Positions 4,278 through 17,893 of a stretch of DNA of 21,013 bases are shown here, piece after piece (position 1 is the stretch's first letter; every line of letters starts with the position of its first letter). The DNA is taken from positions 1 to 21,013 of IMG/VR virus record IMGVR_UViG_3300042260_000847. The stretch is one strand, 5' to 3'. The stretch is from a virus. Under the pieces are notes generated by a model that saw only the letters and a list, made by a program, of their open reading frames with translations, made no database searches and had not been told where the DNA came from. The translations under genes and the position numbers were made by a program.

Positions 4278-4679
4278 TCAACTTTCTTGCGCATCGCTCC
4301 CAAACGCCACGGCCGCCTGTTCGCTCCAACGCAATGCCGCGCAATCGGCAAGCTCCAGCAGAGTCACCGCCGGTACCTCGCGCTTGTATATGATGCGCTT
4401 GAGTACCTCGGGCGCGAGGTAAGCCAGCCGAATCTGACGCCCGATGTAGCGGTCCGTCACCCCGACAGCGTTGGCGAGGTCCATCATGGTGCCAAACTCG
4501 CCAGATTCCATCCGCCGCCGCCAGGACCAGGCGCGGCCTATGGCGCGCAGGATATGCGGATCTTGGGTGTTATCTTCGCTCGGCCGATAATCGGCGGGCG
4601 GCATTATTTTCGGCCGCCCGTTCTTTTTGCGCAAATTCAGGGGAACGAAAATCTGGATCGTGTCAGGCTCGGCGCTCAT
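4278..4679 (-). CDS. Stand-alone helix-turn-helix protein of the recombinase operon
   Basis: The 133-residue product has a basic N-terminal segment (RKKNGRPKIMPP, about 18-28) and a helical DNA-binding-like region at about 44-110. That region reads LRAIGRAWSWRRRMESGEFG, then TMMDLANAVGVTDRYIGRQI and RLAYLAPEVLKRI. In many alphaproteobacterial recombinases a similar segment, as I recall it, is fused to the C-terminus of the recombinase; here it is a separate gene. Its ATG overlaps the recombinase stop as ATGA, so the two are translationally coupled. I infer that it helps the recombinase bind DNA or selects sites. It may alternatively be an independent repressor. It is the last gene of the operon and no clear terminator follows. 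Confidence 0.7.
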   Translation of the reverse strand: MSAEPDTIQIFVPLNLRKKNGRPKIMPPADYRPSEDNTQDPHILRAIGRAWSWRRRMESGEFGTMMDLANAVGVTDRYIGRQIRLAYLAPEVLKRIIYKREVPAVTLLELADCAALRWSEQAAVAFGSDAQES

Positions 4680-6004
4680 TCTGTGGCCACCAAGCCGGGT
4701 TTGGTCATCAAGTCCCGTATGACGCCCGTGATCCCCTCGGTGCGCAGATCTATCACCAGCCCGTCCTGGGTGACGGTGACACGGCGCACAATTAGCTGGA
4801 TGATGCGTGCCTGCTCTGCGGGGAAAAGCTGCGCCCAAAGGTCCTGGAATCCCTGCGTCGCCGCAATGGCCTCGTCCTCGGGGATGTCTGTGCTTCCCTC
4901 ACGCGCAAGTGTCGCCAACACCTGCGCGGTGGTTTCTGGCGTGCGCAGAAAGCGGCGGATTTCCGTGATAACGGCGGCCTCGACGGTGTCTGCCGCGAGC
5001 CGCTGGGTGAACCCATCGCCATCCCCACCACGGTTCTTCAACACATCCATGGAAACGTAATAGCGATAGCGCCGCGTCCCCTTCTTGGTGCTGGAGGGCG
5101 TCATGGCGGTGCCGGTGGCGGTGAATATCAGGCCCTTGAGCAGGGCAGGGGTCTGGGTGCGGCTGTTGTTGGCACGCAGGCGTGGGCTATTTCCCAAAAT
5201 GGCCTGCACCTGCTCCCAAAGCCTGGCGTCGATGATGGCTTCATGCTCGCCCGGATAGGCCTTGCCCTTATGAACGGCCTCGCCGCGATAGATGCGGTTT
5301 CTCAGGAGGCGGTAGATATAGCCCTTGTCGGCGGCGGCACCCTGCTTGGTGCAGAACCGCTCGGCGCGCAATTCCCGCGCCAAGATGGTAGCAGAACCCA
5401 CCTCGACAAAGCGCTCGAAAATCCGGCGCACCGAAGCCGCCTCGGCCGCGTTCACCAACAGCTTGCGCTCGTGTAAATCGTAACCCAAGGGCACATAGCC
5501 GCCCATCCAAAGCCCGCGCTGGCGCGAGGCTTTAAACTTGTCGCGAATGCGTTCGGCGGTGACCTCGCGCTCGAATTGCGCGAAGCTGAGCAGAATATTC
5601 AGCGTCAGCCGTCCCATGGATGTCGTGGTGTTGAAGGACTGGGTCACCGAGACGAAGGTGACGCCGTTTCGGTCAAAGACCTCGACCAGCTTCGAGAAAT
5701 CCATCAGCGAGCGGCTGAGGCGGTCGATTTTGTAAACGACGACCACATCGATCAGCCCGTCTTCGATATCGACGAGCAGTTGTTTCAGCCCCGGGCGATC
5801 CAGGGTGCCTCCCGACACCCCCCCATCGTCATATTGATCCCGCACCAGCGCCCAGCCTTCTGAACGCTGGCTGGCGATATAGGCCTCACAGGCCTCACGC
5901 TGCGCATGCAGGCTGTTGAACTCCTGCTCGAGCCCTTCTTCGCTCGATTTGCGGGTGTAGATGGCGCAGCGTAGGCGCCGCGTCGGTTTGGAAGCCGCAT
6001 CCAT
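4676..6004 (-). CDS. Large serine recombinase (site-specific integrase)
   Basis: The N-terminal resolvase domain covers about residues 10-160. The nucleophile is probably Ser20 in YTRKSSEEG, with DRLSR (94-98) supplying catalytic arginines and the long E-helix at about 135-160. A recombinase domain (about 170-270, starting GYVPLGYD) follows. Where most large serine recombinases have a Cys4 zinc ribbon there is GLIFTATGTAMTPSSTKKGT, with no cysteines. At 442 residues it is on the short side for the class. The ATG at 6004 overlaps the DUF2924 stop as TGATG; an upstream in-frame ATG at 6118 lies inside that gene and is rejected. It likely integrates and excises the element by strand exchange through a 5' phosphoserine link. 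Confidence 0.92.
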   Translation of the reverse strand: MDAASKPTRRLRCAIYTRKSSEEGLEQEFNSLHAQREACEAYIASQRSEGWALVRDQYDDGGVSGGTLDRPGLKQLLVDIEDGLIDVVVVYKIDRLSRSLMDFSKLVEVFDRNGVTFVSVTQSFNTTTSMGRLTLNILLSFAQFEREVTAERIRDKFKASRQRGLWMGGYVPLGYDLHERKLLVNAAEAASVRRIFERFVEVGSATILARELRAERFCTKQGAAADKGYIYRLLRNRIYRGEAVHKGKAYPGEHEAIIDARLWEQVQAILGNSPRLRANNSRTQTPALLKGLIFTATGTAMTPSSTKKGTRRYRYYVSMDVLKNRGGDGDGFTQRLAADTVEAAVITEIRRFLRTPETTAQVLATLAREGSTDIPEDEAIAATQGFQDLWAQLFPAEQARIIQLIVRRVTVTQDGLVIDLRTEGITGVIRDLMTKPGLVATE

Positions 6005-6459
6005 CACTTGCCTCCTCGGTTCTGTTCGCGCAGGCCGAAAAACCTGTATCCATTCCAGCGCGTGCCCGTGATGGCCCGCGCGACGGCTGAGAGTGACTTG
6101 TAGCGCCGCCCAGCCCATTCAAAGCCGTCTTTCATCACCGTGACGGAATGCGCGACGCCGTCCCACTCGCGGATTAACTGGGTGCCTGTCACGGGATTGC
6201 GGGGATCGACGATTTGCGCCTTGCGCGTGAGTGTGCCCTCCACCTCGTCGGCGAGCAGATCCAGCATGCGCCGGGTCGCGCGGTCGGGGCCGCCGTGGGT
6301 CAGTTCTTGAATTCGGTAAGCAATGCGGCCTTCGAGAAAAGCGCGGCTGTTGTTCGGGGCAGTGCTGCCAAAAAGCATCTGCCACTGCTCTTTAAGCTCG
6401 GGCACCGACATCGCCTTCAGGGCGGCAAGGCGGGTCAGGATTGGTTCGTGCGTCGTCAT
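6004..6459 (-). CDS. DUF2924 family protein, recombinase partner
   Basis: The 151-residue product matches the DUF2924 pattern that is regularly found directly upstream of serine recombinases in alphaproteobacteria. It has an N-terminal helical part with LKEQWQMLFGS (22-32) and NSRAFLEGRIAYRIQEL (37-53). A C-terminal beta-rich part contains GTQLIREWDG, VTVMKDGFEWAGRRYKSLSA and ITGTRWNGYRFFGL. The role of the family is not established; the operon position suggests a DNA-binding or accessory factor for the recombinase. The start at 6459 is preceded by a GGAGAC ribosome site and overlaps the upstream stop as ATGA. Longer frames reaching 6891 run through the upstream gene and are not credible. Confidence 0.85.
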   Translation of the reverse strand: MTTHEPILTRLAALKAMSVPELKEQWQMLFGSTAPNNSRAFLEGRIAYRIQELTHGGPDRATRRMLDLLADEVEGTLTRKAQIVDPRNPVTGTQLIREWDGVAHSVTVMKDGFEWAGRRYKSLSAVARAITGTRWNGYRFFGLREQNRGGK

Positions 6460-6887: not shown

Positions 6888-7562
6888 TCACATTTCGCGG
6901 GCAAACCAGCGCACGCGGCCGACAATATTCACCATATCCAAGAGTTGCTCATAGGGAGAGTAATGCGGGTTGTCCGACAAAATGCGGATCCGTTGAGGGT
7001 CGGTGTTGGGCACGGCCTCAATGCGTTTGGCAACGAGGCCCATGCCGTCGTTTAGAACAAAGATCCCCGGCGGGTTTGGGATCTGCCGCGTCATGTCGAC
7101 AAGCACCATGTCCCCCGACATCAACGTTGGCTCCATGCTGTCCCCTTCTACATGCAGCAAACGTAGTTTGGCAGGGGACACACGCAGGCGGCCTTCAATC
7201 CAAGCCTTGCGGAAGAGATAGGTCTTGTCAGTGTCTTCCTCGTGGTCATCCACGGCGGCCCCGGCCCCCATGGAAGCCACCGGCGCTGCCAAGCGGATGG
7301 GCAGGAATTCGTCGACAACTTCCAATGGGGCAGGCGTCTCGCCCTCAACCTGGCCTGCGCCCGTTAACAGCCAGTCGACATCCACCTTTAGGACCGCAGC
7401 GACCTGGGCAAGCGTATCGCGATTGGGGCGCTTCGATTTTCCGCGCAAGATGTCATAGACAAAGCTTCTGGGCACACCCGCTTGCTCAGCGAGTTCGGCC
7501 ACTTTCAGCCCAAGCTGGTAGGTCCTTGCATCAAGACGCTCGGGCAGTTGGGCAAGGGTCAT
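6888..7562 (-). CDS. S24/LexA-type phage repressor with XRE helix-turn-helix
   Basis: The 224-residue protein has an N-terminal XRE helix-turn-helix (about 18-66: VAELAEQAGVPRSFVYDILRG, then NRDTLAQVAAVLKVDVDWLL) and a C-terminal S24 peptidase domain (about 120-222). The Ser-Lys dyad is visible as Ser142 in EGDSMEPTLMSGD and Lys179 in LVAKRIE. An Ala-Gly pair at about 100-101 (SMGAGAAV) is a plausible self-cleavage point. By family knowledge such proteins hold lytic genes off and cleave themselves when RecA is activated by DNA damage. The ATG at 7562 has GGAG eight bases upstream. It is divergent from the gene at 7641 and sits downstream of a near-consensus promoter, so it is the likely lysogeny switch. 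Confidence 0.9.
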   Translation of the reverse strand: MTLAQLPERLDARTYQLGLKVAELAEQAGVPRSFVYDILRGKSKRPNRDTLAQVAAVLKVDVDWLLTGAGQVEGETPAPLEVVDEFLPIRLAAPVASMGAGAAVDDHEEDTDKTYLFRKAWIEGRLRVSPAKLRLLHVEGDSMEPTLMSGDMVLVDMTRQIPNPPGIFVLNDGMGLVAKRIEAVPNTDPQRIRILSDNPHYSPYEQLLDMVNIVGRVRWFAREM

Positions 7563-7592
7563 GTGGATACTCCGAGGACAATCTGTGGATAA
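7562..7592 (-). promoter_or_regulatory. Pair of DnaA-box-like direct repeats
   Basis: TGTGGATAC (7562-7570) and TGTGGATAA (7584-7592) lie 22 bp apart, two helical turns. The second is the exact reverse complement of the DnaA-box consensus TTATCCACA; the first differs at one base. They overlap the -10 box and the start of the repressor gene. They may bind DnaA or be repressor half-sites. Confidence 0.4.
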
Positions 7593-7617
7593 AACAAGAT
7601 TGATTGGATGGTGTCAA
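7589..7617 (-). promoter_or_regulatory. Promoter of the repressor gene
   Basis: On the minus strand TTGACA (7617-7612) is followed after exactly 17 bases by TTTTAT (7594-7589), which is close to the sigma-70 consensus. It lies 27 bases upstream of the repressor ATG. The ATTGA/TCAAT pair at 7599-7603 and 7614-7618 overlaps the -35 box and could be part of an operator. Confidence 0.65.
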
Positions 7618-7628
7618 TTCGATAGAAC
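7600..7628 (+). promoter_or_regulatory. Candidate rightward promoter of the gene at 7641/7659
   Basis: TTGATT (7600-7605) is followed after 17 bases by TAGAAC (7623-7628). It faces rightward and overlaps the repressor promoter, so the two would compete. Transcripts would begin near 7635, inside the ribosome site of the first ATG, which favours use of the second ATG at 7659. Confidence 0.35.
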
Positions 7629-7640
7629 ATAAGGGGAACA

Positions 7641-8318
7641 ATGCGGGGTGAGTCTGGGATGCGGATTGAGCGAGAATATCATGATTTGGCCTGGATCACG
7701 CAGACATGGGGCGTAACCTACTCTGACCTGCAATATCTTGCGGAAACGGCCCAGTTGCAGGTGTCCATCCGCGTCTTTGATGAACCGCTCCGCCCCTTTG
7801 TTGGTGGCCGAATCAGCTCCAGCCCGCGCGATATTCAATCCTATACGGGGCTTCTTGCGTTGCGCAGAGGCGATGTATTTGCCGTGTTGCGCGATGGTGA
7901 TGCCATGCTGGATGTTTTCGTGGGGGCGGACGGCCACGATGTCCGCTTGGAAGAGCCTCAATGTGTCTTGATCGGGGATCTGGTGGTTGGCGCTGAAGAG
8001 CGCCAGCGCTTTGAAGATGGCTGTGGCTTTAGCCGCCGACGGGGGCGGGAGCCTTTGAACTTCCGGGCGTTCCGCTGGGAAGGCCAATCCTTTGCCTTCA
8101 CCATCATGCAGGCAAAATTTCTGCAGCATTTGCACACGGCCCATTCAGCGGGGCAGCCTTGGGTCAACGGCAAGAAGGCGCTTGAGGAGATTGGCTCTGC
8201 CTTGATGAAGCCGGGCGATCTGTTCAAGCGCCGCATTACCTGGCGCAACATTGTCGATCACGACCAGAAGGGCAACTATCGGCTGCAACCAAGTTTCTGG
8301 GTCTACCCGCCCAAATAG
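7641..8318 (+). CDS. Unknown protein divergent from the repressor, possible regulator
   Basis: Family not recognised. The frame gives 225 residues from the ATG at 7641 (AAGGGG five bases upstream) or 219 from the ATG at 7659 (MRIEREYHDLAW), which also has a G-rich ribosome site. The N-terminal part (AWITQTWGVTYSDLQYLAET) could be helix-turn-helix-like. The middle is beta-rich and contains LLALRRGDVFAVLRDG. The C-terminal third, about 145-225, reads FTIMQAKFLQHLHTAH, QPWVNGKKALEEIG and FKRRITWRNIVDHD, and looks like a winged-helix domain. Position opposite a CI-like repressor makes a regulatory role likely, as for Cro-like or anti-repressor genes, but no motif proves it. It is single-gene, closed by a terminator 22 bases after its stop. 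Confidence 0.65.
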   Translation: MRGESGMRIEREYHDLAWITQTWGVTYSDLQYLAETAQLQVSIRVFDEPLRPFVGGRISSSPRDIQSYTGLLALRRGDVFAVLRDGDAMLDVFVGADGHDVRLEEPQCVLIGDLVVGAEERQRFEDGCGFSRRRGREPLNFRAFRWEGQSFAFTIMQAKFLQHLHTAHSAGQPWVNGKKALEEIGSALMKPGDLFKRRITWRNIVDHDQKGNYRLQPSFWVYPPK

Positions 8319-8340
8319 GCGCGGCCCAATGCCCAAGCGT

Positions 8341-8364
8341 ATCCGCCGACTCGGCGGATTTTTT
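8341..8364 (+). terminator. Rho-independent terminator
   Basis: ATCCGCCG (8341-8348) and CGGCGGAT (8352-8359) form a perfect eight-pair stem with an ACT loop, followed by a T-run to 8364. It closes the rightward gene stopping at 8318 and insulates the early operon from the switch region. Confidence 0.9.
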
Positions 8365-8405
8365 GTCCAACCGCGTTCCCTGAGCTCTCCGCACTTGGGA
8401 GGGCA

Positions 8406-8558
8406 GGGGGGAACAAAAGGGGCGAACAGGGGAGAACAAGGGGGAACAGGGAGGAACAAAATCCGTAGAGGGGGTGGTTAAGGTATTGAATTCGCTTGCC
8501 GTGAATTTGGTGATTTTGTTCCCCCCGCGTTCCCCCTGTGTCCGACGACGTTCCCCCC
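8406..8558 (+). repeat. Array of 10 bp GGGGNGAACA repeats with inverted copies
   Basis: Five direct units lie at about 8406-8415, 8419-8428, 8429-8438, 8439-8448 and 8449-8458; the last four are exactly 10 bp apart. Three inverted units, GTTCCCCC(C), lie at 8518-8526, 8529-8536 and 8550-8558. The 60 bp between the two sets is comparatively AT-rich. A single GGGGAACA also sits at 7633-7640 in the switch promoter. The array lies just upstream of the early operon and probably binds a regulator. Confidence 0.7.
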
Positions 8559-8602
8559 GTTAGCTCGGCAAGGTGTTCCTGTCACAGCCGATGGAGACAG
8601 GA

Positions 8603-8809
8603 ATGACACAGAGTTTCTTGAGTGCGCTCGAGCTTGCCGAGCGTTGGCGGGTCAGCCCCCGCACCTTGGAAGAATGGCGGGGGCGCAATCGTCCGCCGCA
8701 TCCGATCAAGATGGGCCGCCGGGTACTTTACCGCATGAGTGACATCGAGGCGTTGGAGCAGGCGGAGTTGAACCGCGTGCTGAACACCTCAGCTCAGAGC
8801 GGTGAATGA
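8603..8809 (+). CDS. Excisionase-like helix-turn-helix protein
   Basis: The 68-residue protein carries a MerR/excisionase-type winged helix over almost its whole length. ALELAERWRVSPRTLEEWRG is the helix-turn-helix, and PHPIKMGRRVLYRMSDIEAL is the wing and following helix. I start it at 8603, where GGAG lies six bases upstream; ATGs at 8573 and 8591 are in frame but have poorer sites. It opens the early operon and overlaps the next gene as ATGA. Proteins of this type bind att DNA as recombination directionality factors or act as small transcription factors. Pairing with the serine recombinase 2 kb to the left makes an excisionase role possible, not proven. Confidence 0.75.
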   Translation: MTQSFLSALELAERWRVSPRTLEEWRGRNRPPHPIKMGRRVLYRMSDIEALEQAELNRVLNTSAQSGE

Positions 8810-17629: not shown

Positions 17630-17893
17630 GTCACCAACCCGTAACTGTCACCGACCTCGGTGAAGGATGGTGACCGGAAAAATGATTTAAAAACAACGCT
17701 GTCACCAACGTCACCAACCTAACGTCGATCTTCTACTCTTATCCATATATGTGTGTGTTTTCTCTCCTGTACCGCTCTCTTCATACATACAAAGTATTTG
17801 GTTGGTGACGTTAGTGACGTTGGTGACAACATTGTTTTTGCAGGGTAATTTTTGTCACCAACCCCCCTATGAGGTTGGTGACAGGTTGGTGAC
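17630..17893. repeat. Iteron-like array of 9 bp repeats, candidate replication origin
   Basis: GTCACCAAC lies at 17630-17638, 17701-17709, 17710-17718 and 17854-17862. Its complement GTTGGTGAC lies at 17801-17809, 17819-17827, 17874-17882 and 17885-17893. One-mismatch copies are at 17647-17655, 17666-17674 and 17810-17818. The tandem pair at 17701 and the triple at 17801 are inverted, forming a 19 bp near-perfect inverted repeat around an AT-rich core. That core holds TTATCCATA (17739-17747), one base off the DnaA box. 17854-17882 can form a 10 bp hairpin. No credible gene overlaps. Confidence 0.75.

Follow-up and report, generated by a model that had tools for sequence, protein, structure and literature searches.

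A helically phased repeat array upstream of a phage early operon as the probable operator of a neighbouring winged-helix protein

In the window (the whole 21,013-bp stretch of viral DNA analysed here, an IMG/VR virus record), the region upstream of the early operon carries two blocks of short tandem repeats. Across related phages the position and period of this array are kept while its letters change, and they change together with the C-terminal winged-helix domain encoded by the gene that starts at 7641 (gene 7641). The array is probably (at roughly 75%, judged from sequence comparison) the operator of the 7641 product, which would bind it in tandem at the early promoter in the manner of OmpR/PhoB regulators, most likely as an activator.

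Early region and array structure

The early region runs from a serine recombinase and a gene that we take to be DUF2924-like, through a repressor and the divergent gene 7641, to a hairpin, the array and a gene for an AlpA/excisionase-like product (AlpA) with MerR-like and excisionase matches. From AlpA the order continues with g8806, a Sak4-like recombinase, an unknown gene, a Cas4-type exonuclease, a Dda-like helicase and a Toprim/VapE primase-helicase. The features are as follows.

4676-6118, minus strand: serine recombinase, the integrase of the window, recognised from its own sequence
6888-7562, minus strand: S24-type CI-like repressor, divergent from gene 7641
7641-8318, plus strand: gene 7641, with an N-terminal part and a C-terminal winged-helix domain (about residues 139-217); likely array binder
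8341-8365, plus strand: terminator-like hairpin (8341-8359) and T-run, between gene 7641 and the array
8406-8415, plus strand: direct unit 1, GGGGGGAACA
8419-8428, plus strand: direct unit 2, GGGGCGAACA
8429-8438, plus strand: direct unit 3, GGGGAGAACA
8439-8448, plus strand: direct unit 4, AGGGGGAACA
8449-8458, plus strand: direct unit 5, GGGAGGAACA
8459-8516: core between both blocks, 58 bp
8518-8528, minus strand: inverted unit 1, read toward AlpA, GTTCCCCCCGC
8529-8539, minus strand: inverted unit 2, read toward AlpA, GTTCCCCCTGT
8540-8549, minus strand: inverted unit 3, degenerate, read toward AlpA, GTCCGACGAC
8550-8558, minus strand: inverted unit 4, read toward AlpA, GTTCCCCCC
8545-8549, plus strand: ACGAC, perhaps a -35 element
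8573-8809, plus strand: AlpA/excisionase-like gene that opens the early operon; its start is probably the ATG at 8603

The upstream block (8406-8458, plus strand) consists of five direct GGGGNGAACA-like units starting at 8406, 8419, 8429, 8439 and 8449, at spacings of 13, 10, 10 and 10 bp. These coordinates bear out a previous, sequence-only reading in which five direct units, four of them spaced 10 bp, had been described; its claim that every unit occupies the same face of the helix fails, because unit 1 is offset by 13 bp and lies off the face of the other four. The downstream block (8518-8558, minus strand) holds GTTCCCC units at 8518, 8529, 8540 and 8550. Three inverted units had been recognised there and are present (8518, 8529 and 8550), but the degenerate fourth at 8540 had been overlooked. 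Their spacings are 11, 11 and 10 bp, and the 11-bp layout is also seen in relatives.

Ten copies of GGGNGAAC were counted in the 21,013-bp window (both strands), seven of which fall within 8401-8560. The top 6-mer has six copies in the 284-bp intergenic region, a number reached in 0 of 200 dinucleotide shuffles, and the same region gives 25 self-matches at lags of 10-12 bp against a shuffle mean of 1.7 (25 was again reached in 0 of 200). The phased regulatory array proposed upstream of the early operon is real and lies well outside what chance gives in this region.

A search of 7500-8700 turned up no canonical sigma-70 promoter, so the early promoter is inferred. ACGAC or ACGTC stands 49-71 bp upstream of the AlpA domain in 17 of the 32 lineage representatives.

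A further copy, GGGGAACA at 7633-7640 (plus strand), had been placed in the same system. The sequence does exist, but it abuts the start codon of gene 7641 (AAGGGGAACA-ATG), a position that fits a ribosome-binding site; it is therefore best read as the Shine-Dalgarno sequence of that gene and not as a regulatory unit.

Collection of relatives

Viral scans with 7641, AlpA or g8806 singly returned, save for one unrelated AlpA phage, only two contigs that are 98.9% identical to the window and so have no independent comparative weight. A scan of genome contigs with the 7641 alignment gave a sole, distant locus (L105), and one match to 7641 was found in 50,697 named phage records. Sak4 was matched in 19 of 385 genomes of the class of the L105 genome (apparently Alphaproteobacteria), from which twelve stretches were read. 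Nothing new was added by the orders of three matching genomes (2-15 genomes each), and a fourth order (43 genomes) supplied two more genomes with matches. Alignments of Sak4 and AlpA were also compared with viral contigs, where the best 80 of 577 loci and the best 80 of 565 loci were taken, respectively; contigs shared by both sets were removed as duplicates through clustering.

A profile search identified 120 AlpA loci. Upstream sequence reached 250 bp or more in 114 of them; L217, L319 and L335 were left out for having less than 900 bp of it with no domain seen, so that 111 remained. The 111 loci were grouped into 45 sequence clusters of AlpA-upstream regions, and one representative was scored per cluster. 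Gene 7641 and AlpA occur together at 28 loci, of which 26 are viral loci other than the window and the remaining one is L188. Among the 26, L202 is near-identical in sequence to the window.

Distant 7641 relatives were also seen in L105:4980-6702 (a Pseudomonadota MAG), where two stand in tandem, and in L006:4228-4962 (a gut phage scaffold), in both cases with no obvious phage early operon.

Conservation of position and period

The gap between gene 7641 and AlpA is repeat-rich at lags of 10-12 bp in 26 of the 28 loci (p < 0.05), the misses being L188 (p = 0.055) and L240, which has a 62-bp gap. Where the domain lies within 900 bp, the mean number of self-matches is 7.4 at lag 11 and 4.9 at lag 22, most other lags giving about 0.5. 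Tandem direct-repeat sites 10-11 bp apart, as expected for OmpR/PhoB regulators, are present at the level of sequence.

The words themselves differ across lineages (GGGGAAC, GGGGAT, GGTTGGTG, GTCTGCAT, CCTACC). GGGGAT is found in L204, L214, L221-L223, L227, L228, L230, L231, L233, L239, L256, L277 and others; ATCCCC in L188, L242, L260, L275 and L276; CATCCCAC in L246; and GGTTGGTG/GGTCGGTG in L205, L210, L211 and L213. The AlpA scan added GTCTGCAT (L326), CCTACC (L316) and ATCCGCC (L284). Loss of the array at this position in relatives had been named beforehand as a sign against it; this sign is misleading, given that position and period are conserved and letters are not. TCCC-type words occur in 15 representatives, and there (motif chosen per locus) all copies less than 100 bp from AlpA point toward AlpA, and the farther block takes either orientation.

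The array could also be a G-quadruplex, an RNA hairpin or a host LexA box, since the direct block has G-runs of 3-6, a 13-bp perfect inverted repeat is present and one GTTC-N7-GTTC occurs at 8518-8532. Relatives, however, keep the period with words that lack G-runs or GTTC (TCACAC, GTCTGC, CCTACC, CCAACC), and this reading is scarcely credible. The LexA-box reading (compared with the alphaproteobacterial LexA box) and the excision-factor reading (compared with Xis filaments) were both rejected.

Co-occurrence of the array with the 7641 domain

Under a definition adopted after inspection of exceptions that carry the domain 1.4-2.5 kb upstream (L192, L194, L324/L336 and L329), a 10-12-bp array is present in 29/32 regions that have a relative of the 7641 C-terminal domain no more than 4 kb away and in 4/13 that do not (Fisher p = 0.0001; 45 sequence-distinct AlpA-upstream regions, periodic at p < 0.05). 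With the second group restricted to regions extending 3 kb or more upstream, the comparison was 29/32 against 1/6 (p = 0.0006). An initial, stricter test, which asked for the domain within 900 bp and for p < 0.02, had given 19/28 against 6/17 (Fisher p = 0.06; rank test p = 0.0007).

Periodic regions with no detected domain are L309, L312, L323 and L349, and the domain occurs with no significant array in L240, L327 and L355. Three regions (L241, L249 and L346) combine the repressor and AlpA with no detected 7641 relative, and their array score is 0; AlpA stands without an array in these three and in L317. A search of relatives had been suggested to see whether the motif co-occurs with gene 7641 or with the repressor; the array tracks the 7641 domain and not the repressor, and the words differ from one relative to another.

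Covariation of words with the 7641 domain

Across 32 representatives, the repeated 6-mers are more similar where the winged-helix domains share higher identity (rho 0.54, p = 0.0005, from a permutation test whose p values ignore the tree); AlpA identity shows no such correlation (rho 0.04). The partial correlation of the domain was 0.54 with AlpA controlled (n = 32), 0.67 with the repressor (n = 15), 0.65 with g8806 (n = 23), 0.63 with Sak4 (n = 29) and 0.62 with g10778 (n = 28), all five at p about 0.001. The other partner's partial was 0.06 for AlpA, 0.21 for the repressor (p = 0.119), 0.30 for g8806 (p = 0.006), -0.02 for Sak4 and -0.03 for g10778. When the ATCCC-type lineages were removed, the correlation between domain and word persisted (n = 15, rho 0.33, p = 0.002). 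Letters in the third helix of the 7641 domain differ with the word as follows.

Third helix MKPGDLFK: word GGGGAAC
Third helix (S/T)(L/T)RMADVFK: word GGGGAT
Third helix ALKLSYLFSS: word GGTTGGTG/GGTCGGTG
Third helix SQRLSSLFS: word GTCTGCAT
Third helix VN(T/S)L(A/T)KAFSG: word CCTTCC/CCTACC

Co-occurrence and covariation together argue for the 7641 product, one of two candidate binders named in the sequence-only reading. The other, the S24 repressor, fares poorly. Were the array the operator region of this CI-like protein, the nearby position of its gene and the correlation of 0.72 between repressor identity and words before control (n = 15) would be accounted for. The partial correlation is nevertheless non-significant once the 7641 domain is controlled, and the array is absent from the three regions that have repressor and AlpA without 7641, so that it neither occurs wherever the repressor does nor varies with the repressor in its own right. 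CI-type operators are, moreover, usually dyads. We consider the repressor very unlikely as the binder.

AlpA itself may coat the phased repeats in Xis/BldC fashion, for autoregulation or excision. Its gene is adjacent to the array and it has the MerR-like/excisionase matches described above; in PMC11963761, MerR-like BldC binds 9-bp direct repeats and forms filaments, and the wHTH excision factor RdfS forms head-to-tail filaments. This explanation is improbable here: the sites do not covary with AlpA (partial 0.06-0.08, n.s.), the AlpA helix SPRTLERWRW is near-invariant over differing words, AlpA occurs without an array in four regions, and the integrase of the window, as read from its sequence, is a serine recombinase.

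The 17630 array and similar motifs

Directly behind the VapE-type primase-helicase gene, at 17630-17893, GTCACCAAC/GTTGGTGAC repeats flank an AT-rich stretch. They had been thought to mirror the early array, but as a functional mirror they fail, since the two vary independently: GTCACCAAC arrays recur in L210, L247, L251 and L255 regardless of the early array, alongside a GGTCGGTG-type early array in L210 and with no 7641-like gene or AlpA found in L251. The 17630 array is a separate element and probably the origin of replication.

The early array, with its direct block, AT-rich core and inverted block, might likewise be a replication origin with iterons, and GGGNGAACA arrays in other viral contigs, some of them in or near apparent replication genes by eye, could be cited for this. 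Against it, 17630-17893 is a better origin candidate that recurs whatever the early array, and the early words vary with a regulator-like domain and not with Sak4 or g10778; an origin in the early array is extremely unlikely. A P4-type ori iteron reading was rejected, the comparison systems being P4 iterons and the lambda ori, which lies inside O.

The GGGNGAACA arrays, at about 10-14-bp spacing, were seen in unrelated phages (L031, L067, L079, L084, L089, L069, L085, L028, L022 and L080); some lie inside or beside apparent replication-initiator genes, and the word appears to be a recurring iteron-like one. A scan of viral contigs with a window-like motif pattern gave 98 stretches, compared with 56 for the reversed control pattern, and at least five units within 120 bp were found at 10/96 motif loci and 0/56 control loci (window's own kin excluded). 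No 7641 relative was found in these loci by tblastn, and they were not counted as relatives.

Nature of the 7641 product

The AlphaFold model of the 7641 product (20 sequences) has a pLDDT of 83, and residues 143-215 are predicted to form a strand-strand-helix-helix-helix arrangement followed by a C-terminal strand pair.

143-146 and 149-152: strands
155-169, 177-183 and 191-194: helices
205-207 and 212-215: strands

A structural comparison of residues 136-218 places DNA-binding domains of the OmpR family at the head of the neighbour list (ArlR at Z 6.7, NsrR 6.6, GlnR 6.5, BaeR 6.4, KdpE 5.8), although Z below 8 is a common level according to the tool and may mean a common arrangement only, and other winged-helix proteins score nearly as high. 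Foldseek gave no match for the whole model at E 0.001 or better. In Pfam scans, no DNA-binding family and no N-terminal receiver domain were matched in 7641, and Trans_reg_C was absent from 7641 and nine other proteins scanned; in another scan the sole scorer was a regulator-region protein of a related prophage (L186:3-944), at 1.1e-4 and below the cut-off. L187 and L284 encode fusions of this domain with a receiver domain (Pfam Response_reg 4e-11 and 4e-14), and a kinase-type ATPase gene (5e-21 and 1e-19) adjoins these relatives. The 7641 product may accordingly work like the OmpR/PhoB family and is perhaps descended from it; family membership is not claimed.

Other proteins were observed at this place. 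The 7641 slot holds a prophage-borne pair of a HEAT/HATPase kinase-like and a receiver-winged-helix protein in L187:4118-6024 and L284:1850-3720. In L248:4488-6494 and L309:1935-3788 the regulator position holds proteins 617-668 aa long that contain a QueC-like part (Pfam 3.5e-6 and 1.6e-8) and whose C-terminus resembles a winged helix by eye.

Proposed mechanism and direction of control

Gene 7641 would be the first lytic-side gene, divergent from the CI-like repressor. Once the repressor permits its synthesis, the C-terminal winged helix would bind words of 5-7 bp, set 10-11 bp apart and head to tail, and several copies would stack cooperatively until the array is filled. One block would lie about 145-200 bp upstream of AlpA and the other would overlap the presumed promoter with its fixed-place ACGAC. 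Filling of the array would then, most likely, activate the early genes (AlpA, Sak4, exonuclease, helicase, primase). Word and helix would match within a lineage and differ between lineages, like a key and lock particular to each.

Somewhat unlikely, in our estimate, is that the 7641 product binds the array but represses; the downstream block would then mask the promoter, and the early operon would be shut or lysogeny held. The overlap of the downstream units with the presumed promoter element fits repression. We infer activation because gene 7641 sits divergent from the repressor, in a lytic-first position, and because sigma-70-like positive regulators occupy the same place in related phages; both points are suggestive only. 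Sigma70_r2 scored 1.5e-4 in L186 and 5e-5 in L269 at the 7641 place, both just below the Pfam cut-off, and Wolbachia phage WO has a sigma-70-like factor (gwv_1123) in the same slot. The sigma-type regions show an 11-bp peak ahead of the sigma gene, with a mean of 5.1 at lag 11 and 6/12 clusters at p < 0.05.

Genes for sigma-70-like factors precede the same Sak4 operon in L186:4077-4652, L269:6505-7098 and L364:6425-6916, Wolbachia phage WO included.

Significance

A broader claim, possible but offered tentatively, is that such a switch is widespread among phages: at one constant position in the early-control region, a new family of winged-helix proteins and its phased operator array would evolve as pairs that fit like key and lock and can be exchanged for one another. 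No description of such a module was found in the open-access literature on phage early promoters and regulators, in which older single-phage work could be missing. If the claim is true, the word would define compatibility groups, that is, which resident prophage triggers, or is triggered by, an incoming relative. Kinase and receiver genes in the prophage would wire the switch in some lineages, and a lysogen could go lytic on a signal and not on DNA damage.

An odd repeat becomes a testable rule, by which the early-operator place and the period are kept and the letters change with one regulator domain. The phage family was drawn here from genomes of the class of the L105 genome and from metagenomic viral contigs. 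A likely lytic-side regulator is named for phages whose 7641 gene is nearly absent from named phage records, phage-borne kinase/receiver pairs are revealed in its slot, and the many natural domain-word pairs are material for reading the winged-helix recognition code.

Comparison with known systems

The array resembles the sites of OmpR/PhoB-type regulators (PhoP, PhoB, KdpE) in that they lie head to tail one helical turn apart. In PMC4832192, PhoP motifs of 7 bp with a 4-bp spacer give an 11-bp period, and affinity is higher for rows of three and four motifs. The likeness extends to the protein, which has a winged-helix C-terminal domain with neighbours headed by the OmpR family and receiver-fused relatives beside a kinase-type ATPase. 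Unlike those regulators, the 7641 product is phage-borne and has neither a receiver domain nor a Pfam Trans_reg_C match, and its presumed sites are grouped in two blocks, each with at most five, whose words vary among lineages.

Immunity-specific repressor/operator pairs of temperate phages share the fixed architecture with a lineage-specific regulator and operator words. They differ in that the covarying partner here is a lytic-side gene and not the CI-like repressor, and in that the repeats are tandem and not dyads.

Xis-type cooperative binders are, like MerR-like BldC, small wHTH proteins on phased direct repeats. For BldC this is described in PMC11963761. The present array departs from both in that its repeat words do not track the AlpA-like protein.
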